Shown here in pieces: positions 30,628 through 43,709 of a DNA stretch of 64,000 bases. The position numbers and the translations under genes were made by a program. Position 1 is the stretch's first letter; each line of letters begins with the position of its first letter. Source of the stretch: a virus; IMG/VR virus record IMGVR_UViG_3300045996_000464, positions 1 through 64,000 of that record; one strand, written 5' to 3'. The notes beneath the pieces are model-generated. The model saw only the letters and a list, made by a program, of their open reading frames with translations, was not told where the DNA came from and did not search any database.

Positions 30628-30692
30628 AGACTTAATGGCGTGCTGCACGATCCGCAGCCGTGAAGCCTAGTCACGATACGACGGGCAATTAA

Positions 30693-30764: not shown

Positions 30765-31161
30765 CTAGTCTCGTAAGCAACACAGGAGATGAGCATGAAG
30801 TAATGTAACAACCCTGCGTCCATAGGACACGAGGCGCGTGGCCACGAAGACCAAACCATGTTAGCCTTGAGGGAACACCTTATGTGGTTGGGGTGAATGT
30901 TACTGTCAGCCGAAGCGGGATCACGTCGCCAAGGAAGCCGGGAACGTCTTGCTAGGCAGCTAGTGCCATTGCGGTAACAGCTAGCTGTTGGGCCTAGTAC
31001 AGCGAAAACTGTGCGGAGGGTCGCCCGTAAGGTAACGTTGATTATATTTGGTTTTGCTTCCCGTCGCTGCATTGCGGCTGGCGGGACATTCATTTAGATG
31101 CTATTTATAGCTGGGCGGACAGCTAGAGCCGGGGTGATAAGCGTCGGCATCCGTCAACCTA
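30765..31161 (+). ncRNA. Structured tract between tRNA-Asn and tRNA-Ser
   Basis: 397 bases without a clear gene. Nested helices CTAGGC/GCCTAG and CAGCTAG/CTAGCTG (30952-30997), ACAGCGAAAACTGT hairpin (30999-31012) also found at 30501-30514, and a CCCG/CGGG stem near 31050-31085. Likely RNA structure rather than coding DNA. Confidence 0.42.
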
Positions 31162-31249
31162 GGAGCGGTCGCATAGTTGGCCGATTGCGCGGGTTTGCTA
31201 AACCCGTATGTCTGAAAGGGCATCCAGGGTTCGAATCCCTGTCGCTCCG
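31162..31249 (+). tRNA. tRNA-Ser (GCT)
   Basis: Class II: acceptor GGAGCGG/TCGCTCC, anticodon stem CGGGT/ACCCG with loop TTGCTAA, long extra arm, G73. Confidence 0.94.
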
Positions 31250-31314
31250 TAGCTAGAAGTCGTCTCGCCGGTAAAGCCACAGGCTGTAAAGCGGAACCGT
31301 TCTCTAGCTTACTT

Positions 31315-31396
31315 GGAATGTGTCCGGGTGGTGAGGGCGCTGTCTTGAAAACAGTTGCGTCGTGAGGCGTTGCAGGTTCGAATCCTGTGCATTCCG
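31315..31396 (+). tRNA. tRNA-Ser (TGA)
   Basis: Class II: acceptor GGAATGT/GCATTCC, anticodon stem GCTGT/ACAGT with loop CTTGAAA, extra arm GCGTCGTGAGGCGT, G73. Confidence 0.94.
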
Positions 31397-31490
31397 TAGA
31401 GTTAGTCCCGGTGTGTTGGCCCGTACAGCCAGAGTCCGGGCTTGACTAGGTTGATCGCCTAGGATTGCAGCATCAGAACCGCTAACTCGT

Positions 31491-31577
31491 GGTTACATCG
31501 CATAGTGGTCTAGTGCGCCCGCTTGGAAAGCGGGTTGGGAGGAAATGCCCTCGTAGGTTCGAATCCTACTGTAACCG
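31491..31577 (+). tRNA. tRNA-Ser (GGA)
   Basis: Class II: acceptor GGTTACA/TGTAACC, anticodon stem CCCGC/GCGGG with loop TTGGAAA, extra arm, G73. Third of three neighbouring Ser tRNAs. Confidence 0.94.
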
Positions 31578-31755
31578 TAGAGAAGATTGTAGACGATCTT
31601 GCAGTCGAAGGAATGTGTCGCCTGAGCAAGCAGCCGCATTCCAGTCTTCTCTTTAGTTTAGGTCATAGTAAGATGCGTTCGACTCGCATTGAAAGCTTGG
31701 TGTGTCGCAGGGTCGTGCTGGCCAGCCCTCTGCGTGACTCCCTGATCTAAAGCTT

Positions 31756-31826
31756 GCGCGATACAGTCATGGCGACGAGTGGGCCTCCAAAACCTTACTG
31801 AGCGGGTTCGACTCCTGCATCGCGTG
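31756..31826 (+). tRNA. tRNA-Trp (CCA), weak anticodon stem
   Basis: Acceptor GCGCGAT/ATCGCGT and T-arm GCGGG-TTCGACT-CCTGC are sound; G73 fits Trp. The loop CTCCAAA is the usual Trp loop but its stem has only three good pairs (GGG/CCT) and the D-arm is short (GTC/GAC). An alternative six-pair stem would leave a 10-nt loop. Confidence 0.7.
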
Positions 31827-31976
31827 CTAAGTCCTTTGTTGCTTGCCGTCCGTGAGGTATCTAGAACCGTAGCGGGTAGCTCAGGGTTAGATTCCCTGAT
31901 AGGGCCACAGCGCCCTAGGCTGAGGGAACCACGCCCTTAAAGCGTGGTATTCTCGGCAACACTGGACTCCGGTTTA

Positions 31977-32049
31977 GCATCGGGCGCGTCCGGTAGATGC
32001 AGCCGAGCTTATATCTCGGCAAGAGCAGGTTCGACTCCTGACCGATGTA
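31977..32049 (+). tRNA. tRNA-Ile (TAT)
   Basis: Acceptor GCATCGG/CCGATGT, anticodon stem CCGAG/CTCGG with loop CTTATAT, T-loop TTCGACT, A73. A UAU anticodon reads the rare AUA codon without needing lysidine modification. Confidence 0.88.
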
Positions 32050-32167
32050 CTCTAGTGTGGCTACGTTGTGCTTGCTGGCACCATGGCAGGAAACTGAGGC
32101 TGACCGTCCCTGGCGTAGATGCGCACCACACTGGAATATTAACACCCTCTCTGACGTTGGAGTAAGT

Positions 32168-32428
32168 ATGGAAAAGACACTGTACAAGTTCTACGCAGAC
32201 TGGTGCGGGCCGTGCAAGATCATGAATCCAGTGGTTGACAAACTAGTAAAGACTCATGGTCTGGTGTTGGTGTCTGTCAACATTGACGACGAACCACATC
32301 GCGCGCACGATCACGATGTACGATCCATTCCTACGCTCGTCTTAGAGCATGAGGATGGCAGCAAGACTCGCGTGGTAGGCGTAAGGCCGTACTATGCAAC
32401 CGAGCAGGCGCTAGGCTTAACCGCTTAG
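32168..32428 (+). CDS. Thioredoxin-like protein
   Basis: 86-aa minimal thioredoxin with W-C-G-P-C at residues 12-16 and cis-Pro segment S-I-P-T-L-V. GGAG lies 6 bases before ATG. Shorter than cellular thioredoxins (~105 aa) because the first beta strand is missing. It could reduce the class II ribonucleotide reductase encoded at 44020. Located between tRNA genes. Confidence 0.9.
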   Translation: MEKTLYKFYADWCGPCKIMNPVVDKLVKTHGLVLVSVNIDDEPHRAHDHDVRSIPTLVLEHEDGSKTRVVGVRPYYATEQALGLTA

Positions 32429-32440
32429 CGTTTGCACCAT

Positions 32441-32517
32441 AGACGTGTATACCCTCGCTCTGATAAGGCGTAGAAAGGTTAGCAGGTTACACAGTGGTTC
32501 GAATCCACTCACGTCTA
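32441..32517 (+). tRNA. tRNA-Ile-like (GAT) without a D-arm
   Basis: Acceptor AGACGTG/CACGTCT is perfect and the T-arm AGTGG-TTCGAAT-CCACT is canonical, total 77 nt. The only good anticodon arm is CGCT-CTGATAA-GGCG (GAT), which begins 7 bases after the acceptor, leaving no room for a D-arm; a ~21-nt segment follows before the T-arm. Could be a D-armless tRNA, or a damaged one. Confidence 0.5.
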
Positions 32518-32864
32518 CTGGCGAAAGCCAATGTCAGGGCAATGCCTATGGACGTAGCGCTAGCCGCGACCATGGAACCGAAGGTCAGATTGGATCGTTC
32601 TTAGATGGCCGGACTTTTCCGGTCTGCCGTTCGTGAAAACTGAAACCGAAATCCATGAGATGCTAGTAGGCGCGGGTACTGGCACCCTTTTTAGAAAGAA
32701 TGGCAATGCAGTAAGTGATTACAATTGGAGAAAGTGGCCGAACCCAACGGTGACCACGAGAACGTCTTGACACAAAGTGGACGAAAGGCTTAATTAGCTG
32801 AGTAGGTAGAAGCGGGTCGAGCGAAAAGCGTGCGAGTTGATCGGTGACGCATTGCCAGTTTTAT
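32518..32864 (+). other. Gene-free leader of the tmRNA
   Basis: 347 bases with no credible gene. Holds TGGC-GAAA-GCCA (32519-32530) and CCGGA/TCCGG (32609/32618) hairpins and a D-arm-like TTAGCTGAGTAGGTAGAAGC near 32793, perhaps a tRNA remnant. Confidence 0.4.
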
Positions 32865-33203
32865 GGGGATGAAATGGTATCGATTGCCAAGTAAATGGCA
32901 TAGTTGCGAGCAGTGGTGACCGAGGCCACTTAAATCACGGTCAAACCAATAAATGCAGAGAACACTTCTGTAGCAGACACCTTCCCGGCCGAATGGGCTG
33001 AGGATCGTCTAGCCGTCGCTGCGTAAACGGATCAACAGAAACGCAGTCCAATGGGACACCCGCGAGGCCATCCTAAATACAACGGGTCTTGCTGATTAAG
33101 GCGGCTCTTGCAGCCGTAACGGGACGCGGCACCTTAGCCAGCTACGCTCGTAGACGCTAGTTGTTTCTTGTGTAAGACGCGAGTTCGACTCTCGCCATCT
33201 CCA
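32865..33203 (+). ncRNA. ssrA: tmRNA
   Basis: 339 nt. The ends form a tRNA-like domain: GGGGATG pairs with CATCTCC, T-arm GCGAG-TTCGACT-CTCGC, A203. The 5' part GGGGATGAAATGGTATCGA is typical of tmRNA. A tag frame runs from a likely GCA resume codon at 32955 to TAA at 33024, giving 23 coded residues beginning AENTSVADTF and ending LAVAA, a hydrophobic degron. It would rescue stalled ribosomes. The tag is longer than most bacterial tags (~10-15). Confidence 0.9.
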
Positions 33204-33315
33204 CTTAAGTGTATCGCCCGCCCAATGCCGGTTGCCGCTGGCTACGGGGCAACGGGTACGGCGGCAACCGTATTCACAATATCGGCTGTAGGCCGAGGCG
33301 GTAGGTTATGAATCA

Positions 33316-33388
33316 AGCGGGTTACCATTCTGGTGAAAACGGGAGTCTCATAAGCTCTCCCAGACGGGTTCGATCCCCGTACCCGCTC
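33316..33388 (+). tRNA. tRNA-Met-like (CAT), unusual D-arm
   Basis: Acceptor AGCGGGT/ACCCGCT, anticodon stem GGAGT/GCTCT with loop CTCATAA, T-arm ACGGG-TTCGATC-CCCGT, C73. The D-region lacks the usual GG-containing loop and instead folds as ACCA-TTC-TGGT. Could be Met or a CAU tRNA modified to read AUA. Confidence 0.75.
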
Positions 33389-33437
33389 CCTTCGTCGCCT
33401 ATCCGGTTAGGCTAATAACCCCGGTGTGGCGGCTCCT

Positions 33438-33509
33438 GGCACCTTGACCGAGTGGTTTAGGTAGTGGACTGCAAACCCACGCACGCGAGTTCGATTCTCG
33501 CAGGTGCCT
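33438..33509 (+). tRNA. tRNA-Cys (GCA)
   Basis: Acceptor GGCACCT/AGGTGCC, anticodon loop CTGCAAA closed by GTGG/CCAC, T-arm GCGAG-TTCGATT-CTCGC, T73 as in bacterial tRNA-Cys. Confidence 0.92.
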
Positions 33510-33563
33510 TGTGGTAACCCGATCAAATGACAGTCGTCATTCCTAAACTATCGGGAGGTTGTC

Positions 33564-33875
33564 ATGACCGTATACTACAGCCCTGAGCAGTGGAACCTAG
33601 AGCCGTTCGCGGAACTAGAGTTGACTGAGCCGGACTATAGCTTCGATCTGGTGGTCGTGTGGCGACACAAGGACACTGGCGAGTTGTACTTCGCTCAAGA
33701 CTCAGGATGTTCGTGCCCTTCTCCGTTCGAAGACTTCACTAGCATCGATGATCTGATCCTCTTGTCTACGGACAACGATTACGATTGCTTGATGCGTGTG
33801 ACGGATCGAGCGGACAACCGCGCGAATCGTGTGAGCTTTCTACGGAAGGTTCACGCGGCGATGCAGACTGGATGA
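33564..33875 (+). CDS. Conserved-looking phage protein with C-S-C-P motif
   Basis: 103-aa protein: V-V-V-W-R-H-K-D-T-G-E-L-Y-F-A-Q-D-S-G-C-S-C-P-S-P-F. I have an impression of similar small proteins in actinobacteriophages, all of unknown function. GGGAGG upstream of ATG. Lies between tRNA-Cys and tRNA-Leu. Confidence 0.75.
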   Translation: MTVYYSPEQWNLEPFAELELTEPDYSFDLVVVWRHKDTGELYFAQDSGCSCPSPFEDFTSIDDLILLSTDNDYDCLMRVTDRADNRANRVSFLRKVHAAMQTG

Positions 33876-33921
33876 TGGAACGGTTGCATGTTCGACCCAT
33901 GCGCGTCCGCTGCTCGCACAA

Positions 33922-33995
33922 GCCCCTCTAGCCCAACTGGCAGAGGCAGTCGGCTTAAACCCGACACAGTAACGGTTCGAATCCGTTGAGGGGTA
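33922..33995 (+). tRNA. Class I tRNA with Leu anticodon (TAA)
   Basis: Acceptor GCCCCTC/GAGGGGT, anticodon stem GTCGG/CCGAC with loop CTTAAAC, A73. The variable region is only ACAGT, so it is a class I body, whereas bacterial tRNA-Leu is class II. The charged amino acid is therefore uncertain. Confidence 0.8.
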
Positions 33996-34008
33996 CTAGC
34001 TGTACATT

Positions 34009-34087
34009 GTTGGTTCGAATCCAACTCCCGGCACTCACGCCGGGATAGCGAAGTGGCAGACGCGCCCTGGCTCATAACTGGGGAGAC
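34009..34087 (+). tRNA. Circularly permuted tRNA-Met (CAT)
   Basis: Parts occur in reversed order. First the 3' half: T-arm GTTGG-TTCGAAT-CCAAC, acceptor TCCCGGC, A73 (34033). After a 5-base linker CTCAC comes the 5' half: acceptor GCCGGGA (34039-34045), TA, a short D-arm GCG/CGC, anticodon stem CCTGG/CTGGG with loop CTCATAA, then AGAC. The acceptor is a perfect 7-bp helix. Flanks CTGTAC (34000) and GTGCGG (34088) can pair and close the unit at the variable loop. Could also be a relic of tandem copies. Confidence 0.7.
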
Positions 34088-34174
34088 GTGCGGTGTAGTC
34101 GAAGAGGGAAGGGAACGAATGTCTAAGCCAATCGGGTGGATGCTCGATAGCGACACGAAAACCTCCTGAGACGA

Positions 34175-34258
34175 GCAGGACTGGTGGAATTGGTATACAC
34201 GGCAGTCTCAAAAACTGCTGCCTTCACTGGCTTGCGGGTTCGAGTCCCGCGTCCTGTA
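34175..34258 (+). tRNA. tRNA-Leu (CAA)
   Basis: Class II: acceptor GCAGGAC/GTCCTGT, anticodon stem GCAGT/ACTGC with loop CTCAAAA, extra arm, T-arm GCGGG-TTCGAGT-CCCGC, A73. Confidence 0.93.
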
Positions 34259-34308
34259 CTTAAGCGTAGGTGAAAGCCCTACTGACAGCCTGGAAAGACG
34301 GGCACCAT

Positions 34309-34381
34309 GCCTCCGTAAGCTTAATGGTAGAGCTACGGTCTTTTAAACCGAGGGTTGCGGGTTCGATTCCTGCCGGGGGCA
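34309..34381 (+). tRNA. tRNA-Lys (TTT)
   Basis: Acceptor GCCTCCG/CGGGGGC, anticodon loop CTTTTAA closed by CGGT/ACCG, T-loop TTCGATT, A73. Confidence 0.92.
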
Positions 34382-34533
34382 CTACAGAAGGAAAGAGCAA
34401 ACCGTGACTGAGGAAGCTAACGGACGGATAAACACGAAGGTCGGTCGCGCCGATCAAGCTTCCTGCCCTTAATGAGTGGGTACTCACGTCGCGTAGGCCG
34501 TCCTATATCGCACCTTCTGTTTTAGATTCACAT

Positions 34534-34607
34534 GGCCCATTAGCTCAGAGGAATAGAGTGTCGCGCTTCGAACGCGAAGGTCGCAGGTTCGATCCCTGCA
34601 TGGGTCG
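34534..34607 (+). tRNA. tRNA-Arg (TCG)
   Basis: Acceptor GGCCCAT/ATGGGTC, anticodon stem TCGCG/CGCGA with loop CTTCGAA, T-arm GCAGG-TTCGATC-CCTGC, G73. Confidence 0.93.
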
Positions 34608-34842
34608 CTGGTGCTAGTAACGATGAGCGGAACGTAGCGTTAGGGATGAGGTTGTGGAGTCATGACGAAACAGCCAAGAGACAGCCCGTTGATCGCGTGA
34701 CAGTCGCTCGTAACTAGAGTGTGAGACAGGTATGTCCGCCACGGCCTGAAAAGGAAGGTGCCTCCACCGGACGCACGATTAAGTGCAGGGATCAGGAGGG
34801 TAAATGTAACGGAGCGCTCCGAGCGACGACAGCCCCCGTTTC
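34608..34842. other. Gene-free spacer
   Basis: About 235 bases between tRNA-Arg and a promoter. Contains a GGAGCGCTCC palindrome but no convincing gene or tRNA. Confidence 0.35.
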
Positions 34843-34871
34843 TTGCACGTCACCAACTTTTGTGATAGGAT
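34843..34871 (+). promoter_or_regulatory. Leaderless-type promoter
   Basis: TTGCAC, 17-base spacer, TAGGAT, then 6 bases to ATG at 34878. Confidence 0.65.
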
Positions 34872-34877
34872 GTACCT

Positions 34878-35057
34878 ATGGCACAAAAGAAGAACGTAGC
34901 TCAGACATCTGGCTGGCGCGGCAGGCAAGACAAGACTCGCCAGGACAGGATGCCAGCAGGGCAACGAGCGCGAGCAGTAGCACAGCAGGATCGCGTAAGT
35001 TGGATGAAGGAAACCAAGCCTACGTGCAGCAGGCATTGGACGTATCGCGAACATTGA
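34878..35057 (+). CDS. Small basic protein, leaderless
   Basis: 59-aa basic, Gln/Arg-rich protein (MAQKKNVAQTSGWRG...). ATG lies 6 bases after a -10 box and has no ribosome-binding site, so it is probably translated from a leaderless mRNA. A second overlapping frame is open here, but it has no start near the promoter. Confidence 0.55.
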   Translation: MAQKKNVAQTSGWRGRQDKTRQDRMPAGQRARAVAQQDRVSWMKETKPTCSRHWTYREH

Positions 35058-35071
35058 AAACTTAGAGAAGC

Positions 35072-35146
35072 CAGGATATAGCTCAGCTTGGACAGAGTGC
35101 GCCCCTCGGACGGGTGAGGCCGTAGGTTCGAATCCTACTATCCTGA
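35072..35146 (+). tRNA. tRNA-Pro (CGG)
   Basis: Acceptor CAGGATA/TATCCTG, anticodon stem CGCCC/GGGTG with loop CTCGGAC, A73. Confidence 0.93.
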
Positions 35147-35217
35147 TCAGATGTATGCCTAGAGTTGTCGGCTCTGTAGGCACCGGGTGGCCACCCGATT
35201 AAATTGAACCGTCACCA

Positions 35218-35293
35218 CAGTGTGTAGCTCAGTTTGGTTTAGAGTACTCGCCTTGGACGCGAGAGGCCGTTGGTTCGAATCCAACCACACTGA
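35218..35293 (+). tRNA. tRNA-Pro (TGG)
   Basis: Acceptor CAGTGTG/CACACTG, anticodon stem CTCGC/GCGAG with loop CTTGGAC, A73. Second of three adjacent Pro tRNAs. Confidence 0.94.
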
Positions 35294-35386
35294 TAGCACT
35301 CTCCGAGGGCGCTATATGCGTTAAGAAGCGGAGGTTCTCAAAGTTGGGCGAAAGCTCTGCGGCGAAGAGTAGGAGAGGGCGATTCA

Positions 35387-35461
35387 CAGGATATAGCTCA
35401 GTCTGGTTAGAGTACTTCGTTGGGGACGAAGAAGCCGCAAGTTCGAATCTTGCTATCCTGA
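35387..35461 (+). tRNA. tRNA-Pro (GGG)
   Basis: Acceptor CAGGATA/TATCCTG (same as the CGG gene), anticodon stem CTTCG/CGAAG with loop TTGGGGA, A73. Confidence 0.94.
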
Positions 35462-35490
35462 CTCGATTCTCCGTACACGGAATAGGTGAC

Positions 35491-35730
35491 ATGTGGGCGA
35501 GAATCTTCTACGGGCCGAGCGATTGGTTCATTCATCATACTAACGCACGACAGCGAGCAGCCATTAACTTTTGGTTGCTCTTCATCTGGATCATTCCAGG
35601 CGTCTTCATCTGGTACGTACTGCGAGATGCGCTGTGGTTCGTAGGCTTCATGAGCATTTACGCAATCTGGGTTAGCCACTTCGGTGGATTCAGCGCAGAG
35701 ACGCCCGTAGAAAACGAGAATGGCGACTAG
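35491..35730 (+). CDS. Membrane protein with two helices
   Basis: 79-aa protein. I use ATG at 35491 because the longer frame would run through tRNA-Pro(GGG). Two hydrophobic segments (F-W-L-L-F-I-W-I-I-P-G-V-F-I-W-Y-V and L-W-F-V-G-F-M-S-I-Y-A-I-W-V) and an acidic tail. Function unknown; holin-like or exclusion roles are possible. Confidence 0.65.
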   Translation: MWARIFYGPSDWFIHHTNARQRAAINFWLLFIWIIPGVFIWYVLRDALWFVGFMSIYAIWVSHFGGFSAETPVENENGD

Positions 35731-36005
35731 GCTACCAACCTAGGTCAGTACACAAGCCTCCCACTGAGATGTGGGGCATCGGGACGATACGCCCCTCAAA
35801 AGGCGGAACGTCTTGATGTTTGGTGGACAGGTCACCGGACGGTCTTGCCTTGGCAGGATCGAGCAGCCCGGTAAAGTCGCACTCAATCGACGGTTAGAGT
35901 GTTGACAGAATTATAGGTGCGCGGCCTAACGGAGTCTAGTGGTGAGGGCTTTTCTCCCCGTCTTCACGCAACACTGCCCTGTTCAGAACAGCGGTGTTGC
36001 TCCAT
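35731..36005. other. Gene-free spacer
   Basis: 275 bases, no coding sequence. Contains CTGTTC/GAACAG pairing near 35979 and an ACGCC/GGCG hairpin near 35789 that resembles an anticodon arm but lacks a T-arm. Confidence 0.35.
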
Positions 36006-36076
36006 TCCTGGATCGTCTAACGGTAGGACAGCGGCCTCTGAAGCCGTATATGGTGGTTCGAATCCATCTCCGGGAG
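36006..36076 (+). tRNA. tRNA-Gln (CTG)
   Basis: Acceptor TCCTGGA/TCCGGGA, anticodon stem GCGGC/GCCGT with loop CTCTGAA, T-loop TTCGAAT, G73. Confidence 0.92.
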
Positions 36077-36370
36077 CTAGCCGCAAGGCTGAATTGTTGG
36101 TGCTTCAAGTCAGCGACGAGTCAAGGCCGTGTAGGGCCGCTTAAGCAGAGCCGTCTGAGCGATCACCTATGCGGGTGTTCGCGGTCGGTACAACTCGTAG
36201 ACACAACGAAGCCTAACCTCACAAGAGTAGGTGGTGGAGGGTACCTAACCTGGGTGAAATTAGAAAACATGCATGGGTACGAAGACCATAGCGGCCTGGG
36301 GAAACCACTGAGGGTATGAGGGAAAGTCTGCTCACGGAGTGAGCGGAGCCAGCACCGTGTAAGGTACAAA
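36077..36370. other. Gene-free, probably structured spacer
   Basis: 294 bases without a credible gene. Several short inverted repeats (e.g. GCTCAC/GTGAGC near 36330-36345). Nature unknown. Confidence 0.35.
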
Positions 36371-36448
36371 GCCAGTTCGCCCAAGGTGGGCACGGCGGCT
36401 GTAACCCGCCCGTCTCAGACACGATAGGTTCGATTCCTATAGCTGGCA
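36371..36448 (+). tRNA. tRNA-Tyr (GTA), class II
   Basis: Acceptor GCCAGTT/AGCTGGC, anticodon stem GGCGG/CCGCC with loop CTGTAAC, extra arm CGTCTCAGACACG, A73. Normal bacterial Tyr type. Confidence 0.93.
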
Positions 36449-36618
36449 TAGTTGTGAAAGCCGCACAGAAGGGCAAAGGGTGCTTATGCCCGGACAGGTC
36501 TTGCTAAGGAAAATGACACCCCTCTTTAGCGTCACAACTAACTCGCTAGTATAGTAGTCTGGCTGACTACACCCGGCTGTAACCCTTTGTTTTGGGTTAC
36601 ATCGCGCAGGTAATTGGC

Positions 36619-36957
36619 ATGAGAGACAGAAATGCTTATGCGCGAGACGTTACGTACCGTAAACCGGGACGCAAAGAGTACATAATAGCGTCTAACAAAA
36701 AGCGGCGAGCAGCAACCGTACAAAGGTTGCGCGATTACAAGTTAGAACATGGTTGCGCTGAGTGCGGCTTTAATGACTGCGCTAGTGCCCTAGACTTCCA
36801 TCACCGTAATGGTGACGAGAAGTTGTTTAGCCTCGGTTCAGCAGCAGCCCAGGATTATGGATGGGATAGGCTCGCAGCCGAGATAAAGAAATGCGATATT
36901 CTTTGCGCAAATCATCATCGCATGAAGAATTGCAAATGTCACGCTAGCATGGTGTAA
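36619..36957 (+). CDS. HNH endonuclease
   Basis: 112-aa protein. ATG at 36619 is preferred over a TTG at 36592, which lies within a GTAACCC/GGGTTAC hairpin. HNH features: C-A-E-C-G-F-N-D, L-D-F-H-H-R-N-G and C-D-I-L-C-A-N-H-H-R. This is the compact zinc-HNH form found in free-standing homing endonucleases. It lies between two Tyr tRNAs and its last 15 bases overlap the second. Confidence 0.88.
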   Translation: MRDRNAYARDVTYRKPGRKEYIIASNKKRRAATVQRLRDYKLEHGCAECGFNDCASALDFHHRNGDEKLFSLGSAAAQDYGWDRLAAEIKKCDILCANHHRMKNCKCHASMV

Positions 36958-37013
36958 AGGTTGCACACTGGTCTGTAAAACCACGAGACTAGGTTCGATT
37001 CCTAGTGCTAGCA
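36943..37013 (+). tRNA. Class I tRNA with Tyr anticodon (GTA)
   Basis: Acceptor GCTAGCA/TGCTAGC, anticodon loop CTGTAAA closed by TGGT/ACCA, T-arm CTAGG-TTCGATT-CCTAG, A73. No long extra arm, unlike bacterial Tyr tRNAs. Starts inside the end of the HNH gene. Confidence 0.85.
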
Positions 37014-37080
37014 CTCGATGAGATGATGACAAAGCTATCGGTCGTCACGCCTATGACCTAGGTCGAAGAGGATAGCACGA

Positions 37081-37156
37081 TCCAAGGTTACTCTGTTGGC
37101 ACGGGTGGCGCGGCTTTGAACCGTTGCAATCGTGGGTTCGATTCCTACCCTTGGAA
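37081..37156 (+). tRNA. tRNA-Gln (TTG)
   Basis: Acceptor TCCAAGG/CCTTGGA, anticodon loop CTTTGAA closed by CGG/CCG, T-arm GTGGG-TTCGATT-CCTAC, A73. Confidence 0.88.
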
Positions 37157-37173
37157 CTGAGCAGGAGAACTAC

Positions 37174-37212
37174 ATGGCGATTGAGGGCCACGAACCCAAG
37201 AGCATCGTCTAA
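37174..37212 (+). CDS. Possible 12-aa peptide
   Basis: MAIEGHEPKSIV with AGGAG 8 bases before ATG. The strong ribosome site is the only support. It overlaps a D-arm-like ATCGTCTAACGGATGA, perhaps a tRNA remnant. Confidence 0.3.
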   Translation: MAIEGHEPKSIV

Positions 37213-37319
37213 CGGATGAACCTGCTGCGGGTGTACGGGTCGTGCCGTTACCCTAAGTTGCACGAAGAGGCGTTTGACGGTAGCCACAACTTCGCTAACC
37301 CAGAGGGAAACCGTCGCTT

Positions 37320-37393
37320 GATGCTGTCGTCTAGAGGCTTAAGGCACCGCCCTGTCACGGCGGATATCGCGGGTTCGAATCCCGTCAGCATCG
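37320..37393 (+). tRNA. tRNA-Asp (GTC), copy 1
   Basis: Acceptor GATGCTG/CAGCATC, anticodon stem CCGCC/GGCGG with loop CTGTCAC, T-arm GCGGG-TTCGAAT-CCCGT, G73. Confidence 0.94.
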
Positions 37394-37497
37394 TATGGGT
37401 CACAGTAGGTGATTCAGCCGGAATCGGCAGCTAGTCTTGTACCTCCCGTTGGGGTCGTGCCCAACAATAGGGTGCTGTACATGTGCCCCGGCAGCAA

Positions 37498-37570
37498 CGC
37501 CCCTTAGTTCATTGGTCTAGAACGCCCGCCTGTCCAGCGGAAGAGACGAGTTCGATTCTCGTAGGGGTGG
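37498..37570 (+). tRNA. tRNA-Asp (GTC), copy 2
   Basis: Acceptor CGCCCCT/AGGGGTG, anticodon loop CTGTCCA closed by CCGC/GCGG, T-arm ACGAG-TTCGATT-CTCGT, G73. Loop position 37-38 differs from copy 1. Confidence 0.9.
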
Positions 37571-37783
37571 CTGAATTCACTACTAATGAATCGTGGTCTG
37601 TGCCAACTGTCATAGACGCCGAACATACACAAGAACACCTTGCCATCGCGCGGGGTGATAGGAAGGTAACAAGCCTTGTGAATCCCAATTCCTGGCAAGG
37701 CTGGATTGGGAACCTTCCGAACAAGGGTTACGTCCAGCGCCCCATCCGTAGAGGGTGGTAAGCGGGGGTAGCGTGCCCACCAT

Positions 37784-37857
37784 ATCAGAGTCGTCTAATG
37801 GTCAAGGACACCAGACTTTCAATCTGGGCAATGCGGGTTCGACTCCCGTCTCTGATA
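37784..37857 (+). tRNA. tRNA-Glu (TTC)
   Basis: Acceptor ATCAGAG/CTCTGAT, anticodon stem CCAGA/TCTGG with loop CTTTCAA, T-arm GCGGG-TTCGACT-CCCGT, A73. Intact version of the damaged gene at 30555. Confidence 0.94.
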
Positions 37858-37926
37858 CTAACTCGATGGATATCACATCGGGGGCGCATGGGGTGCAATT
37901 CCCATTAGAAACATGCGCTTGCTTTA

Positions 37927-38000
37927 GCATCAGTAGCTCAGTGGTAGAGCATCCGCGACATGGTAGCGGAAGGTCATGGGTTCGATCCCCATCTGGCGCT
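37927..38000 (+). tRNA. tRNA with 9-nt anticodon loop
   Basis: D-arm GCTC-AGTGGTA-GAGC, variable AGGTC and T-arm ATGGG-TTCGATC-CCCAT are canonical, but the stem TCCGC/GCGGA encloses GACATGGTA, nine bases with no U33. The acceptor GCATCAG/CTGGCGC has one A-C mismatch; T73. The anticodon cannot be assigned; CAT is in the loop. Confidence 0.7.
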
Positions 38001-38118
38001 CTGGTGATACGTAACGGTGGCCTACGCTTCGGCGGACAATAGTGCGCCTAAGTCGTATCACCAACATTCAGGTCGGAGCTTACCCGATACACAGGAAATC
38101 CTATTGTTAGGAGCTACT

Positions 38119-38280
38119 ATGTATCACCGATCTGATGCCAGTCTCCGACGCATCGCAAAGAAGCGCGCGAAGAGACATGGTACTACGGCAAAGGACTTCA
38201 AACGGAAGGGCTTGCGGAGGCGCTGGCTCGTTCATCAGCTAGCCGGACATAACGGCTACAAGAACACCGATTTGCCGTAA
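38119..38280 (+). CDS. Small basic protein, unknown
   Basis: 53-aa Arg/Lys-rich protein (MYHRSDASLRRIAKKRAK...), GGAG upstream of ATG. Ribosomal- or RNA-binding-like composition. Function unknown. Confidence 0.6.
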   Translation: MYHRSDASLRRIAKKRAKRHGTTAKDFKRKGLRRRWLVHQLAGHNGYKNTDLP

Positions 38281-38321
38281 ACGACAAGGTGGACTCCTAA
38301 ACGTGCAGGGGAGTCCGTCAC

Positions 38322-38393
38322 GCCAGCTTAAGCCTAATGGTAGGGCACATCCCTTGTAAGGATGGGGTACGGGTTCGATTCCTGTAGTTGGCT
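38322..38393 (+). tRNA. tRNA-Thr (TGT)
   Basis: Acceptor GCCAGCT/AGTTGGC, anticodon stem CATCC/GGATG with loop CTTGTAA, T73. Only 2 bases separate it from the next tRNA. Confidence 0.93.
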
Positions 38394-38395
38394 CT

Positions 38396-38469
38396 GTGGA
38401 TGAAGCTAAAGTGGCCGAAGCTCTGGGTTGTGATCCCAGCGAAAGCGGGTTCAAGTCCCGTCATCCACC
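38396..38469 (+). tRNA. tRNA-His (GTG), copy 1
   Basis: Acceptor GTGGATG/CATCCAC, anticodon stem CTGGG/CCCAG with loop TTGTGAT, C73 as expected for His. Followed by CCA, perhaps by chance. Confidence 0.92.
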
Positions 38470-38473
38470 CCAC

Positions 38474-38548
38474 GGTGAACGGGTAGCCTTTGGCGGCTAC
38501 GGCGGGTTGTGATCCCGTTGGCAGCGAGTTCGATTCTCGTCGTTTACC
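38474..38548 (+). tRNA. tRNA-His (GTG), copy 2
   Basis: G-1 at 38474 can pair with C73; acceptor GTGAACG/CGTTTAC, D-stem GTAG/CTAC, anticodon stem GCGGG/CCCGT with loop TTGTGAT. Confidence 0.9.
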
Positions 38549-38553
38549 CTTAA

Positions 38554-38664
38554 GCGGACGTAGCTCAGTTGATGAGAGCATCGTGGCGTTAACCCACTCG
38601 CGCTAGAGCGCTCTAGGTGCGGTGGCTGTCACGAAGGTCGGAGGTTTGATTCCTCCCGTTCGCT
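38554..38664 (+). tRNA. tRNA with structured insertion in the anticodon loop
   Basis: Acceptor GCGGACG/CGTTCGC, D-arm AGCTC...GAGC and T-arm GGAGG-TTTGATT-CCTCC are intact and T73 is followed by CCA. The anticodon stem TCGTG/CACGA encloses 44 bases instead of 7. The insert folds into nested helices CCAC(T)CGC/GCGGTGG and CTAGAG/CTCTAG. Amino acid identity cannot be read. Not a group I intron (too short). Confidence 0.65.
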
Positions 38665-38733
38665 CCATGTTCCGGTGTGGTTCCACGGTTCTCACATCGG
38701 CCGCTGACAGACCCGTGGTTCCTGTCAGCATTC

Positions 38734-38806
38734 GCCTGACTGGTGCTAATGGATAGCATACGTCGTTGGTATCGACGGGGACAGAGTTCGATTCTCTGGT
38801 TAGGCT
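38734..38806 (+). tRNA. tRNA-Thr (GGT)
   Basis: Acceptor GCCTGAC/GTTAGGC, anticodon stem CGTCG/CGACG with loop TTGGTAT, T-arm CAGAG-TTCGATT-CTCTG, T73. Confidence 0.93.
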
Positions 38807-38900
38807 TGTGACCCACTACATGGAGGCGCACACATGCGCAACTCACTTGCCCAAACCATGTAGGTAGCAATAGTGCTACCTCATCGTTTGGGAGGTAAAG

Positions 38901-39086
38901 TTGGCCAGAAAGTCTCAGGCCGAAATTGATCTTGGTTCTCTTGGCAAGGGCAAGAAGAAGGACAAGAAGAACAAGAATCGCAAGTACGGGCGTAACCTCA
39001 AGAAGTGCGCCAACTACCGCTTGCGCGTCGGTAAGCCCCTCGGAAGAGGCGTATCCGGCAACAAGCGCGGCAAGAGCCACGTTTAA
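38901..39086 (+). CDS. Small lysine-rich protein
   Basis: 61-aa protein from TTG with GGGAGG upstream: A-R-K-S-Q-A-E-I-D-L-G-S-L-G-K-G-K-K-K then a basic C-terminus. Composition fits nucleic-acid binding. Function unknown. Confidence 0.6.
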   Translation: MARKSQAEIDLGSLGKGKKKDKKNKNRKYGRNLKKCANYRLRVGKPLGRGVSGNKRGKSHV

Positions 39087-39097
39087 ATATGGGAGTA

Positions 39098-39128
39098 GTC
39101 AAGGTTCAAATCCTTGCCCTGGCCCCAC
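39098..39128 (+). tRNA. tRNA 3'-end fragment with CCA
   Basis: T-arm CAAGG-TTCAAAT-CCTTG followed by CCCTGGC, C and CCA. No upstream partner for the acceptor is found. It looks like the 3' end of a cellular-type tRNA, such as an attachment-site core or transfer relic. Confidence 0.4.
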
Positions 39129-39213
39129 AAGGGTCGGGAGGTAGTGTTAGCGGGCGCACGCTCCCCTACATCATCGGGTATGGATTCCGCCCGAGGCCCA
39201 AAAGGGATCACCC

Positions 39214-39286
39214 GCCAATCAAGCTTAAGTGGCTAAGCGCCTGTTTCGTAATCAGGAGGTTCTCGGTTCGAATCCGGGGATTGGCT
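39214..39286 (+). tRNA. tRNA-Thr (CGT)
   Basis: Acceptor GCCAATC/GATTGGC, anticodon loop TTCGTAA closed by CCTG/CAGG, T-loop TTCGAAT, T73. Confidence 0.9.
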
Positions 39287-39327
39287 TACACTCCTAAATC
39301 AAAACCCACCATTGTGTACGGAGACGC

Positions 39328-39579
39328 ATGAAGAAACTACTACTCGTTCCGGTCATGGCCCTCGCGCTGTTCGTTGGCGCAGCGGCAGCACCGGCTAAGA
39401 CCCCGGTGTTCGGCACCGAGGATTCATGTGCGGCAAGCTTCTCAATCGAGAATGCTCAAGCATGTGGCTCTAACCCGACACCCTATATCGTTCACTGTAG
39501 CTATAACTCATCCACTGGCCACTACTTCGTCGGCTGGTCGGACGGACGCTGGTACTACAACCCGAACGGCTGCTGGTAG
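39328..39579 (+). CDS. Small secreted protein
   Basis: 83-aa protein with a signal peptide (K-K-L-L-L-V-P-V-M-A-L-A-L-F-V-G-A-A-A-A), then a ~60-aa mature domain with four cysteines and many Trp/Tyr, ending N-P-N-G-C-W. GGAG upstream. Possibly acts in the host envelope; function unknown. Confidence 0.7.
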   Translation: MKKLLLVPVMALALFVGAAAAPAKTPVFGTEDSCAASFSIENAQACGSNPTPYIVHCSYNSSTGHYFVGWSDGRWYYNPNGCW

Positions 39580-39630
39580 AAACACGGTGGGCCACCAGCC
39601 GTTCAAATGGTGGCTATAAGGTTGGTTTCA

Positions 39631-39759
39631 ATGAAAAAGAACACTGGAATCGCAGCTTACAGGCTGATCCTGCGGAAACGGCCATGGTACCGTAGATGGT
39701 ACGCCCTGACGCTCTATTTTTACTACCGTACTAAGATCAGGCTCACATCTCACCTGTAA
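39631..39759 (+). CDS. Small basic aromatic protein
   Basis: 42-aa protein (MKKNTGIAAYRLILRK...) rich in Arg/Tyr/Trp. AAGG is 11 bases upstream. Start of a run of close-packed small genes. Function unknown. Confidence 0.45.
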   Translation: MKKNTGIAAYRLILRKRPWYRRWYALTLYFYYRTKIRLTSHL

Positions 39760-39765
39760 TGGGTG

Positions 39766-39840
39766 ATGAGTACGATCCTAATCCTAGTAGTTCTGGCCGT
39801 AATCCTGGTATGGGTTCTCTGGCCAGACATTCGGAGGTAA
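39766..39840 (+). CDS. 24-aa membrane peptide
   Basis: MSTILILVVLAVILVWVLWP plus a short charged tail; a single membrane helix. Its end supplies the GGAGG for the next gene. Similar to the 20-aa peptide at 29633. Confidence 0.55.
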   Translation: MSTILILVVLAVILVWVLWPDIRR

Positions 39841-39843
39841 GAA

Positions 39844-39951
39844 ATGTCAAAGGGTGACAAGGTAGAAGTACAGGCAGCGCAGAAGGGTAGCCCCAAGAAG
39901 GGTTCTGGCTGGCGCAACGTAGGCAAGAAGCTACGCCGAAAGAAGAAGTAA
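39844..39951 (+). CDS. 35-aa basic peptide
   Basis: M-S-K-G-D-K-V-E-V-Q-A-A then a Lys/Arg-rich end. GGAGG upstream; stop overlaps the next ATG (TAATG). Function unknown. Confidence 0.55.
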   Translation: MSKGDKVEVQAAQKGSPKKGSGWRNVGKKLRRKKK

Positions 39952-40202
39952 TGAGCGAGCTAGAAGAGACAGCCAAGCGGCTAGCTAAGGCTAGCGAAAC
40001 AATCTATTCCAAGGCGGATGAAATCAAGGCTGTCGCGGATCAGTTGCGTTCGGACGTAGATGTTCTTACGGAACGACTCGACGCGGTTGAAAGTGATGCA
40101 ACTCACGTTGCAGAGAATCTAACCGCAACTAGTGAGAAGGTTGAGGGGCAGCAAGTTAAGCAGGATGATCGTCTAGACACTCTAGAGAACGGCAACACAT
40201 AG
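39951..40202 (+). CDS. Coiled-coil protein
   Basis: 83-aa protein, nearly all heptad-like helix (D-Q-L-R-S-D-V-D-V-L-T-E-R-L-D-A-V-E). Its stop overlaps the first base pair of tRNA-Val. Function unknown. Confidence 0.65.
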   Translation: MSELEETAKRLAKASETIYSKADEIKAVADQLRSDVDVLTERLDAVESDATHVAENLTATSEKVEGQQVKQDDRLDTLENGNT

Positions 40203-40273
40203 GCTATTAACTCAGTTGGGAGAGTACCTCGTTGACATCGAGGAAGTCACTGGTTCAAGTCCAGTATAGCCTA
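40201..40273 (+). tRNA. tRNA-Val (GAC)
   Basis: Acceptor AGGCTAT/ATAGCCT, anticodon stem CCTCG/CGAGG with loop TTGACAT, T-loop TTCAAGT, A73. Confidence 0.94.
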
Positions 40274-40278
40274 CTCAT

Positions 40279-40350
40279 GGGGAATTAGTGCTAACGGGAA
40301 CACATCGGTTTTGCATACCGAAATTAAGGGTTCGACTCCCTTATTCTCCA
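40279..40350 (+). tRNA. tRNA-Ala (TGC), copy 2
   Basis: Acceptor GGGGAAT/ATTCTCC, anticodon stem TCGGT/ACCGA with loop TTTGCAT, A73. Differs from copy 1 in the body. Confidence 0.94.
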
Positions 40351-40370
40351 CTTTGTGCTATACTTAGAGT

Positions 40371-40514
40371 ATGACCGAGAAGATGAAAGTCAAAGGTTCC
40401 AGCGAGGTTGTCCAGGTCACCGGCAAGAGCGGCGATTATTACCGCGTCTACGTCAAGGGTGTGTCTGGTTACTATCACGACTGGTACCACAAAGATCAGT
40501 TGACTCCCGCATAA
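40371..40514 (+). CDS. Small protein, leaderless
   Basis: 47-aa protein (MTEKMKVKGSSEVVQV...), beta-rich with many Tyr. ATG lies 6 bases after TATACT, so leaderless. Its end overlaps tRNA-Gly. Function unknown. Confidence 0.6.
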   Translation: MTEKMKVKGSSEVVQVTGKSGDYYRVYVKGVSGYYHDWYHKDQLTPA

Positions 40515-40583
40515 GTAGCTCAGATTGGCCAGAGCAGGTCGTTGCCAACGATCAGGTCGTGGGTTCGAATCCCATCTTATGCT
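40509..40583 (+). tRNA. tRNA-Gly (GCC)
   Basis: Acceptor GCATAAG/CTTATGC, anticodon stem GGTCG/CGATC with loop TTGCCAA, T73 as usual for bacterial Gly. Overlaps the previous gene by 6 bases. Confidence 0.93.
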
Positions 40584-40634
40584 TAGCTCGTTCGTGGGTG
40601 AGGGTACCCAATATGACCATGTTCGGGCTTTCAA

Positions 40635-40708
40635 GTCTCATTAGTGTTAGCGGTTCAGCACTACAGTCTTCCAAACTGTAAGCATCGGTTCGAATCCGAT
40701 ATGAGACT
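40635..40708 (+). tRNA. tRNA-Gly (TCC)
   Basis: Acceptor GTCTCAT/ATGAGAC, anticodon stem ACAGT/ACTGT with loop CTTCCAA, T73. Confidence 0.93.
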
Positions 40709-40849
40709 CTTCCACGGACAGTCCTCGCAGGGTATCCTAGGGCAGTTAAACACACTGCGACCATTCGGCCCGAGACGGAGCTAGGTTGACGGTATCAGAA
40801 TGCAGAACATCTAGGGTCGTGTTTACTGATGAGGCTTAACCGTGGATAT

Positions 40850-40922
40850 GGTTGCGTAGCTCAGAGGATAGAGTGCCTCCCTGCGAAGGAGGAAGCCGCT
40901 GGTTCGATTCCAGCCGTGACCA
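40850..40922 (+). tRNA. tRNA-Arg (GCG)
   Basis: Acceptor GGTTGCG/CGTGACC, anticodon stem CCTCC/GGAGG with loop CTGCGAA, A73. A G34 anticodon for CGC/CGU, where bacteria normally use A34 (inosine). Confidence 0.92.
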
Positions 40923-41054
40923 CTAGACCGTATGTTCCAGATTGCCGCCGTTGACGAACGGGTCTGCCCCTGGACTTGAGAATCCAACTCTTGCATCTAA
41001 CGTGGATGTAAGCAAGGGTTCCAGACGGTCTTTCATGTACAACCCGGAGAAAGC

Positions 41055-41243
41055 ATGTACAAGGACGCAAACAAGTTGACGGTGCGCGAAGGATACGAAT
41101 GGGCGCTAGCTGCCGCAACTGCTGCCGAGCATGGCAGTGGCTCTAGCAACACCCACGTTCCTGCTGCCTATCAGGCTGCATATGACGCTGGGTACAACTA
41201 TGGCACCGCTGTGTTGAAGCCCATGAAGCGCAACACTCACTAA
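41055..41243 (+). CDS. Small protein, unknown
   Basis: 62-aa alanine/tyrosine-rich protein, CGGAG upstream of ATG. It ends 3 bases before the RNase P RNA. No motif recognised. Confidence 0.6.
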   Translation: MYKDANKLTVREGYEWALAAATAAEHGSGSSNTHVPAAYQAAYDAGYNYGTAVLKPMKRNTH

Positions 41244-41246
41244 TTT

Positions 41247-41544
41247 GTAGCACAGACTGCGGCTGTCAGATTCAATCAACTGGCAGAGGAAAGTCCGGGC
41301 ACCTGCTTGGCGGGAATTCAACCGCGCAAGCAAACGTTCACACGAGCCTAGGAGATGACCTTAACTTTTCGAAGTTAAGATGAATCGCTTAACTAGTAAG
41401 GTGGCGGGGTGCGACCCCAAGACGTGCGGCTGAGATGCTGACACAGGTAGGGGGCAGGTAGACGTGAGTCTCCCGCGATAAATAGCGAGTTAGATCGTAG
41501 TCCTTCCCCGCAAGGGGTTGACAGAACCCGGCTTATCGTGCTAC
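41247..41544 (+). ncRNA. rnpB: RNase P RNA
   Basis: 298 nt. Conserved region I GAGGAAAGTCCGGGC (41286-41300) and region V ACAGAACCCGGCTTAT (41521-41536) are present, with TTAGATCGTAGTCC before region V. The ends GTAGCAC and GTGCTAC pair as helix P1. Region I and V can form the universal P4 helix. It is shorter than typical bacterial type A RNA (~350-400 nt), with small peripheral helices. It would cleave 5' leaders from tRNA precursors, probably with the host protein subunit. Confidence 0.93.
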
Positions 41545-41547
41545 ACT
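41518..41547 (+). promoter_or_regulatory. Promoter inside the RNase P RNA 3' end
   Basis: TTGACA (41518-41523), 18-base spacer, TACACT (41542-41547). The -35 box overlaps conserved region V and the -10 box overlaps helix P1. It places RNA start at or near ATG 41555. Confidence 0.65.
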
Positions 41548-41554
41548 GTATTGC

Positions 41555-41749
41555 ATGAAGTTACAGCGTGAAACTGCGCCGACGCCCGATGGCGAAATCC
41601 CGGAGTGGGAGCAGCTTTACTGCTGGTCATGTTCCGCCAACAAGCATCACCGTCTGGTCACGATGATGGATTCAGATCATGGCACAGAGGCTCTACATCA
41701 GTGCATGAATTGCAACACTGTTTCACAAGCGTTTTACCCTGCTACGTAG
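41555..41749 (+). CDS. Zinc-ribbon protein, leaderless
   Basis: 64-aa protein with Y-C-W-S-C...C-M-N-C, a four-cysteine zinc ribbon. ATG is 7 bases after a -10 box and has no ribosome site. Its end overlaps tRNA-Met. Confidence 0.7.
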   Translation: MKLQRETAPTPDGEIPEWEQLYCWSCSANKHHRLVTMMDSDHGTEALHQCMNCNTVSQAFYPAT

Positions 41750-41813
41750 CCAAGTGGTCTAAGGCAGCGGCCTCATAAGCCGCCACTCGTCAGTTCGAAT
41801 CTGACCGTAGCGA
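41740..41813 (+). tRNA. tRNA-Met (CAT)
   Basis: Acceptor TGCTACG/CGTAGCG, anticodon stem GCGGC/GCCGC with loop CTCATAA, T-arm GTCAG-TTCGAAT-CTGAC, A73. Probably elongator Met; an Ile2-type (lysidine) identity cannot be excluded. Confidence 0.9.
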
Positions 41814-41814
41814 T

Positions 41815-42000
41815 ATGGCTAAAATAAACCAAGCAGCAGAGAAGCGGCTCAAGAACGAAGAGTACGCCAAGAAGTTCGAAAAGAAGAAGGAACCACAGGT
41901 TCGTGGCAAGAAGGAAAAGCCGAAGCCGAAGTTCGCTAATTGGTGTCGGGCTAAGGGGCATCCAGCATCTTGTCAGGTAGACGCATGTCCTCAGCCGTAA
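41815..42000 (+). CDS. Lysine-rich protein with C/H motif
   Basis: 61-aa protein: long Lys/Glu helix, then W-C-R-A-K-G-H-P-A-S-C-Q-V-D-A-C, a possible zinc knuckle. Starts 1 base after tRNA-Met. Function unknown. Confidence 0.6.
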   Translation: MAKINQAAEKRLKNEEYAKKFEKKKEPQVRGKKEKPKPKFANWCRAKGHPASCQVDACPQP

Positions 42001-42311
42001 AACATAATCATCTCACTAGGGATATCAAGCGCCCTGGTGTTTGCCCCAAGTGCGACGAGTATCACAAACGTCCAGGCGGGCAGCTAAGTCCTGGTAGCTC
42101 AGAGGAAGAGCTTTCGCCTCCTAAGCGAATGGTCGCTGGTTCGAATCCAGTTCAGGACGTTATGAAATGGTATTGTAGGCGTTGCGGGTACGTCATGAAT
42201 GGTATAGCTCAAACGTGGCGCGGTGATGGCCCGTGGTGTCCCACACCAAAATGTAAGGGTATGAAACTAACGCGCGGGATGGAGCAGTCAGGTAGCTCGT
42301 CAGCCTCATAA
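41985..42311 (+). CDS. Zinc-ribbon frame reading through a tRNA gene
   Basis: One open frame (108 aa from ATG 41985) crosses the whole tRNA-Arg(CCT) gene and ends in the anticodon loop of the initiator-like tRNA. It has C-P-K-C-D-E-Y-H before the tRNA and Y-C-R-R-C-G-Y-V...W-C-P-T-P-K-C after it. Alternatively a separate 49-aa protein starts at ATG 42163, with AGGA in the tRNA acceptor. I cannot decide which is used. Confidence 0.45.
   Translation: MSSAVKHNHLTRDIKRPGVCPKCDEYHKRPGGQLSPGSSEEELSPPKRMVAGSNPVQDVMKWYCRRCGYVMNGIAQTWRGDGPWCPTPKCKGMKLTRGMEQSGSSSAS
42088..42159 (+). tRNA. tRNA-Arg (CCT)
   Basis: Acceptor GTCCTGG/TCAGGAC, anticodon stem TTCGC/GCGAA with loop CTCCTAA, G73. Lies entirely inside an open reading frame. 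Confidence 0.92.
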
Positions 42312-42346
42312 GCTGAAGGTCGTAGGTTCAATTCCTACTCCCGCTT
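42273..42346 (+). tRNA. Initiator-like tRNA-fMet (CAT)
   Basis: D-arm GAGCAG...GGTAGCTC is like bacterial initiator tRNA, and C1-T72 is mismatched as initiators require. Anticodon loop CTCATAA. The anticodon stem is TCAGC/GCTGA, lacking the three G-C pairs typical of initiators. T73. Confidence 0.85.
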
Positions 42347-42391
42347 CTAACCTCCTAAGTGTGGATTGTGACCACAACCGAGGGAGGTAGC

Positions 42392-42721: not shown

Positions 42722-43333
42722 TTGCGTAGATTTCTAGCAATCCTCGCGTTCGCTGTCGTAGCTGCTGTGGGCGTGGGAACGTCAGTCGCGGTAGCAAACG
42801 GCCCGGATACAACCACCATCTGTCATCTTAAGCCTGGGTTCCAGAACGGCCCTGGTGCAGAGTTCATTCAGATGGAAGTGCCCAATTCGGCTCTTGATGC
42901 ACATCTTGCTCACGGCGATACTCTCGGCTCGTGCGGCGGCGGCGGCACAGTCACTGTCACTGTTCCGGGTGGGACGACTACGGTTACTGTTCCGGGCGAG
43001 ACTGTCACTGTTCCTGGTGAGACGGTAACGCTTCCAGGTGAAACGGTCACGGTTCCAAGTCAGACAGTAACACTTCCGGGCCAGACGGTAACAGTAGAGA
43101 AGACAGTTGACCCAGTATCTGCGGTTACGGTGCCTGGGCCTACTGTAACAGTCACTGTTCCTGGGCCTGTCGGAGTGCCTACGCCGGATCGACCTGTTGA
43201 GGTTCGCACGGTCGTTAAGAAGGCGAAGACGGTCATCAAGTGGAAGACGCGAACGGTCGTTAAGACCAAGATCGTTAATCGCTGCTTGCCACCTACACCG
43301 CCCCGTCCTCGTGAAGTCCCGTACACTCCGTAA
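42722..43333 (+). CDS. Secreted repeat protein
   Basis: 203-aa protein from TTG with AAAGG upstream. Signal peptide (L-A-I-L-A-F-A-V-V-A-A-V-G-V-G), then a short domain with T-I-C-H and D-A-H-L-A-H-G-D, then about nine T-V-T-V/L-P-G-x repeats (~residues 76-150). The tail is basic then proline-rich and lacks LPxTG. The repeats suggest an extended surface or wall-associated rod. Overlaps the sortase gene by 23 bases. Confidence 0.75.
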   Translation: MRRFLAILAFAVVAAVGVGTSVAVANGPDTTTICHLKPGFQNGPGAEFIQMEVPNSALDAHLAHGDTLGSCGGGGTVTVTVPGGTTTVTVPGETVTVPGETVTLPGETVTVPSQTVTLPGQTVTVEKTVDPVSAVTVPGPTVTVTVPGPVGVPTPDRPVEVRTVVKKAKTVIKWKTRTVVKTKIVNRCLPPTPPRPREVPYTP

Positions 43334-43709
43334 CATTCTGATTCTGGGGGTGGTCAGCCTTGCGCTGGCTGCCTCCGCTTCAGCGTACCCAAATACGATC
43401 TACATCCCCAAAATCGGCCTTTACGCCGCTTTAGCACCATCGCTCGACACTGGCCCGTGGTTGTACTGGCAGGACGAGGACACAGTAGCCATCGCAGGGC
43501 ACCGTACAACGCATTCTAAGCCCTTCTCAGCAATAGATAGGCTTAGCCGGGGTGATCTTATCAGAACGCGCGGAAAGAACTACAGAGTGGCTAAGATTGT
43601 AGTGATTCGACCGTGGGAAACATGGGTATTGAATTGGCAGGGGCTTGTCCTCTCTGCGTGTACGCCCAAAGGCTCTGCTTCTCATCGCATAGTTGTGCTG
43701 GCACGATAG
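43311..43709 (+). CDS. Sortase (class E-like)
   Basis: 132-aa protein from GTG 43311; an upstream in-frame ATG would give a long overlap and no signal. N-terminal membrane anchor/signal (I-L-I-L-G-V-V-S-L-A-L-A), then A-G-H-R-T-T-H (His64), L-S-A-C-T-P-K-G (Cys117) and S-H-R-I (Arg126), the sortase triad. The A-G-H-R-T-T-H...P-F-S-A-I-D-R-L pattern is typical of actinobacterial class E enzymes. Likely a transpeptidase that joins proteins at the cell surface; its partner may be the preceding gene. Confidence 0.88.
   Translation: MKSRTLRNILILGVVSLALAASASAYPNTIYIPKIGLYAALAPSLDTGPWLYWQDEDTVAIAGHRTTHSKPFSAIDRLSRGDLIRTRGKNYRVAKIVVIRPWETWVLNWQGLVLSACTPKGSASHRIVVLAR

Follow-up and report, generated by a model that had tools for sequence, protein, structure and literature searches.

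In class A bacterial RNase P RNA (RF00010, rnpB), the conserved regions CR-II and CR-III touch the tRNA elbow. Reduced cellular RNase P RNAs, namely, the type T form, which is archaeal (Thermoproteaceae), and the forms found in CPR bacteria, keep the catalytic core and have lost parts of the specificity domain. Phages have, to our knowledge, been assumed to depend on host RNase P, and phage T4 uses the host ribozyme. The pre-tRNAs of T4, part of which lack an encoded CCA, are RNase P substrates (PMC11143913). Huge phages carry tRNAs, tRNA synthetases, and tRNA modification enzymes, and RNase P is unmentioned in the text of the paper that describes them (PMC7162821). No description of a phage RNase P RNA came up in our search of the full-text literature, which did not extend to preprints or to most subscription journals, and an earlier notice is possible. 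Here we describe a locus that differs from the T4 case in that the RNase P RNA is borne by the phage itself. The gene lies in a window of 64,000 nucleotides (nt), the whole stretch of viral DNA that was analyzed.

The window is taken from an IMG/VR virus record that is 71,288 bases long and is a fragment of the genome of an uncultured myovirus. Judged from its genes, the contig is viral: it encodes a tail sheath, a virion/baseplate-like protein, ribonucleotide reductase, DnaB and DnaC homologues, primase, a DnaE-like polymerase, and UvsX, with a terminase match at 63794-64981. The polymerase is ~30% identical to polymerases of Rhodococcus, Gordonia, and Mycobacterium phages. Two neighboring genes (60189-60608 and 61833-62177) are 45% identical over 112 amino acids (aa), a local duplication. 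The tRNA array detected with ARAGORN and Rfam spans 27757-42347, with all genes on the plus strand. The earlier note had described an array of about 50 tRNAs; the array stands, while the count is slightly lower, at 45 tRNA genes plus one tmRNA. The tRNAs as a rule lack an encoded CCA. The tmRNA gene (32865-33204, plus strand; ARAGORN, and RF00023 at 108.3 bits) supplies a further likely substrate for RNase P, and its predicted tag is unusually long (AENTSVADTFPAEWAEDRLAVAA). A thioredoxin-like gene (32045-32425) also lies within the array, and a sortase domain (PF04203, E value of 1e-11) is found in the phage protein encoded just past it, at 43197-43706.

The RNase P RNA gene is surrounded by these tRNA genes, near the 3' end of the array and on the same strand, and extends from P1 to P1 at 41246-41545. 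In a cmscan search, the bacterial class A model RF00010 aligned across its positions 1 to 367 with window positions 41244-41551 (plus strand), scoring 64.4 bits with an E value of 2.1e-19 (7.1e-21 when the whole contig alone was searched). Because this score is below the RF00010 gathering score of 100 bits, which is a curation limit, a default Rfam scan of the window did not report an RNase P RNA at the cutoff, and the match was revealed by a lowered threshold. The covariance search suggested in the earlier note yielded a full-length match that, at 2e-19, is far from chance, and a score short of the family threshold. Read literally, that score agrees with one of the results that the note had named as refuting its reading; the shortfall comes from the reduced specificity domain described below. 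CPR bacteria have genuine but diverged RNase P RNAs that also score under covariance model thresholds (PMC8172020).

The P1, P2, P3, P5, P15, and P18 helices are all present in the expected order, and every feature described below is on the plus strand. The closing P1 helix forms all 8 of its pairs (41246-41253 with 41538-41545); it had been recognized in the earlier note, whose ends of 41247 and 41544 were correct to one base. P2 (41255-41261 with 41496-41502) and the P3 hairpin (41263-41286) each form 7 of 7 pairs, including one G-U. Both conserved blocks, CR-I (GAGGAAAGTCCGGGC, 41286-41300) and CR-V (ACAGAACCCGGCTTA, 41521-41535), are exact and sit where they had been placed originally. Between them, the 5' strand of P4 (41291-41293 and 41295-41299) pairs with its 3' strand (41527-41534) in a pseudoknot, with 8/8 pairs around a bulged U at 41294. 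The 5' strand of P5 (41300-41303) forms 4/4 pairs with 41408-41411, and the P15 region (41414-41454) is closed by 4/4 pairs (41415-41418 with 41450-41453) and holds the CCA-binding motif GGUA opposite P15 (41446-41449). Downstream are the P18 hairpin with a GUGA loop (41460-41471) and the P19 hairpin with a GCAA loop (41506-41517), each with 4/4 pairs, and the joining segment ahead of the P2 3' strand contains AGAU (41492-41495), which is kept in relatives too. The RNA also folds more stably than its own shuffles (z score of -2.8). A promoter-like match at 41518-41547 was rejected as no better than chance.

The window RNA thus shares with cellular class A RNA the whole-length match, CR-I, CR-V, P1 to P5, P15 with GGUA, P18, and P19. 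It differs in being located in a phage, in its score of 64.4 against 100 bits, and in a 104-nt specificity domain without recognizable CR-II or CR-III. We regard its identity as an RNase P RNA as nearly certain, and its catalytic domain, as read from these pairings and motifs, as intact. The claim of the earlier note that an RNase P RNA gene lies inside a phage tRNA array is therefore supported by the RF00010 match, the helices, and the position in the array; what that note missed was the reduction of the specificity domain and the sharing of the gene by many phages.

The reduced domain (41304-41407) was left unaligned by cmscan and was delimited by this, by folding, and by a relative (L172) with the same plan. 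Its 104 nt compare with about 150 nt between the P5 strands in Escherichia coli. Folding predicts a hairpin set directly on P5, followed by a second arm made up of a CUAG/CUAG stem and of an 8-bp hairpin capped by UUCG. Neither cmscan nor folding gave a recognizable CR-II or CR-III in the window RNA or a P7. It is this reduction, and not a broken catalytic domain, that brings the score below the Rfam cutoff. Since CR-II and CR-III are unrecognizable, the RNA may bind the tRNA elbow weakly; absence of the T-loop-binding part would perhaps be tolerated because the phage enzyme meets a narrow and abundant set of substrates. Short class A RNAs also occur in bacteria (Nitrosomonadales and Paludibacteraceae), so shortness alone is not specific to phages. 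The type T and CPR forms resemble the window RNA in the parts kept and lost, a likeness drawn here at the level of domains, but they are cellular and the sole copy in their genomes.

A low score and the loss of recognizable CR-II and CR-III would also be seen in an RNA captured from a host that is losing its specificity domain and function and is kept in the array by chance. Such relics may occur: a 207-nt RNase P RNA on a 191-kb viral contig (L236:10596-10802), seemingly without P12 to the P15 5' strand, looks like a P12-to-P15 deletion and is perhaps a relic or an extreme reduction. In the window RNA, however, every helix of the catalytic domain pairs even though the gene had no blastn match among 50,697 phage records. 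Together with the comparisons between phages given below, this makes decay an unlikely explanation.

Pattern scans of IMG/VR for the two conserved blocks at varied spacings identified 36 viral contigs, beside the window, that carry an RNase P RNA and at least 10 tRNAs and reach 497 kb. About 32 of them are distinct, after subtraction for the identical-looking or nearly identical pairs G038/G039, L239/L241, G011/G023, and G004/G034. The first set of scans contributed 16 contigs (10 to 69 tRNAs; up to 497 kb), the second 9 (10 to 38 tRNAs), and the third 11 (at least 10 tRNAs in the stretch examined). Rfam scores of the phage copies range from about 50 to 300 bits, and 11 copies fall below the cutoff, as the window copy does (L171, L172, L173, L174, L231, L232, L234, L237, L238, L242, and L243). 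One (L175) matches class B only, and weakly; a class B pattern scan of IMG/VR found nothing. Three other phage copies used as blastn queries returned host-like or unannotated fecal records or no match. One 202-kb contig (G002) with an RNase P RNA and tRNAs also has a group I intron match (L003:3325-4112), which adjoins a gene resembling an RtcB-type RNA ligase. Terminase family matches with in-frame stops were seen at G011:116462-117013 (TGA) and G049:4923-6401 (TGA and TAG), which may reflect stop codon recoding or broken genes.

Roughly 20 further contigs, mostly shorter than 36 kb, have an RNase P RNA and 0 to 3 tRNAs; they were left out of the count because they are probably prophages with host flanks. 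Nine small contigs (G005, G006, G007, G016, G019, G021, G024, G027, and G029) have canonical RNase P RNAs of 331 to 335 bits that are nearly identical in score and mostly at a contig end. These are probably prophages bounded by the host rnpB, which is possibly their integration site. Two public records returned by the blastn searches were rejected: GenBank MW495066 (L046, "Microcystis phage MaAM05"), whose RNase P RNA is canonical (251.8 bits), carries fabI, engB, and mtgA close to that RNA and looks like bacterial DNA, and an Acinetobacter record proved to be a prophage plus host. The smaller contigs and MW495066 show how host DNA in a contig, or a chimeric assembly, could create a spurious phage RNase P RNA. 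For the window we consider such an artifact extremely improbable, given that phage genes flank the array on both sides and that terminase, portal, or tail sheath genes were also found on many, although not all, of the independent tRNA-rich contigs that bear the RNA gene.

Comparison among the phage copies gave evidence of selection on structure. In 37 distinct copies, P1 scored an average of 7.9 with its own partner strand and 4.0 when partners were exchanged between phages; the corresponding values for the window P1 were 8 and at most 5.5. In P4, three pairs changed on both sides, and the covariation score was reached by none of 500 shuffles. Eight distinct block pairs underlie this count, and the letters allowed there had been limited by the patterns used in the scans, so we treat the P4 covariation as supportive and not as independent evidence. 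An unpaired P4, which the earlier note had named as evidence against its reading, was not what we found: P4 is fully paired in the window and covaries across phage copies. From phage to phage, P1, P2, and P4 are built from different letters, a sign that their structure is under selection.

A polymerase peptide scan for relatives of the window phage found none, and a relative contig (G041) was found via its RNase P RNA. Its ribonucleotide reductase is 56% identical to that of the window phage (592 aa), its DnaE is 29% identical, and a homologue of the thioredoxin-like gene lies beside its tRNA array. Like the window RNA, the G041 RNA is of the reduced plan, namely, a hairpin set on P5, AACGU, a 4-bp stem, GA opposite GCUUAA or GUUUUA, and another stem; the helix letters differ on both sides. 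Short specificity domains are also shared among other phage copies. The P10-like part and the UAAGG that follows it are common to L171, L232, and L237, and a different short domain, CCGUGUGG...CCACUAAGC, is common to L230, L234, and L238. Short domains that are conserved within groups yet differ between them argue against simple decay, as do the re-forming of helices with other letters in the relative and the covariation of P4.

The spacing between the RNA gene and its neighboring tRNAs varies. In the window, the closest tRNAs lie at distances of 320 nt (upstream) and 188 nt (downstream), and none abuts the gene. Many other phages have the gene tightly packed between tRNAs. Taking the Rfam model ends as the ends of the RNA, each side of the gene has a tRNA no more than about 3 nt away in six cases (L169, L231, L233, L238, L242, and L022), and a tRNA follows 0 to 7 nt downstream in 10 others (L168, L173, L232, L234, L237, L018, L020, L024, L039, and L041). 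Since cleavage by RNase P takes place at the tRNA 5' end, a tRNA that abuts the 3' side would mean that the 3' end of the RNA is itself made by RNase P. We infer such self-release from the spacing for these phages; it would not apply to the window RNA. tmRNA genes also lie close to the RNase P RNA in L169, L170, L174, and L177.

Our preferred reading, which we consider probable, is that the window contains a phage class A RNase P RNA gene with a reduced specificity domain, whose product would join the host protein RnpA and mature phage pre-tRNAs. The RNase P RNA would be cotranscribed with the tRNAs of the array and bind host RnpA, and the resulting enzyme would remove the 5' leaders from the pre-tmRNA and from all 45 phage pre-tRNAs, so that a burst of pre-tRNAs would not have to rely on the P RNA of the host. 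In phages with a tRNA directly after the gene, cutting at that tRNA would also free the 3' end of the ribozyme. Catalysis by the window RNA is predicted from its sequence features. An RnpA gene (PF00825) was not found on the window contig or on 46 other contigs tested, which are possibly fragments; this fits use of the host protein.

The same finding would suit a phage RNA that draws RnpA away from the host P RNA or retargets RNase P, with host reprogramming as its purpose instead of phage tRNA maturation. The part that is conserved is the catalytic domain, which binds RnpA, and the part that is reduced is the specificity domain, as a decoy or modifier might have it. However, P4, the bulged U, and GGUA are all kept, and a pure decoy would not need these active-site features; moreover, dozens of phages have the gene among their tRNA genes, a placement that favors tRNA maturation as its role. 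We therefore judge a role in host reprogramming to be quite improbable and retain the reading of a tRNA-maturing enzyme. Counted against that reading is the fact that most tRNA-rich phages lack the gene. No RF00010 match was obtained in any of 14 well-known large or tRNA-rich phages (Finch, E3, RedWattleHog, Phrappuccino, Colt, Tonenili, Atu_ph07, G, XacN1, Lak-A1, Lak-B8, SCTP-2, phiR1-37, and KVP40, the last with only a 6.8-bit chance match), in a search whose stricter filters may have overlooked a very weak copy.

The recurrence of the gene in tRNA arrays suggests that certain phages come equipped with the core of a tRNA-processing enzyme of their own. We lean slightly toward a broader view, in which the RNase P ribozyme would have been acquired repeatedly by phages with large tRNA arrays, would have become a regular member of these arrays, and would have been miniaturized (to ~220 to 310 nt) in several lineages, with short lineage-specific domains replacing the one that binds the tRNA elbow; the RNA would combine with host RnpA into a chimeric enzyme and would free its own 3' end wherever it is abutted by a tRNA. 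In the short phage forms, nature has tested how far the specificity domain of a bacterial RNase P can be cut back. If the recurrence holds true, the catalytic core of tRNA maturation would in some cases be supplied by the phage, and candidate reasons for having an enzyme of their own are saturation by many pre-tRNAs, host shutoff, and host defenses that act on tRNAs or on RNase P.
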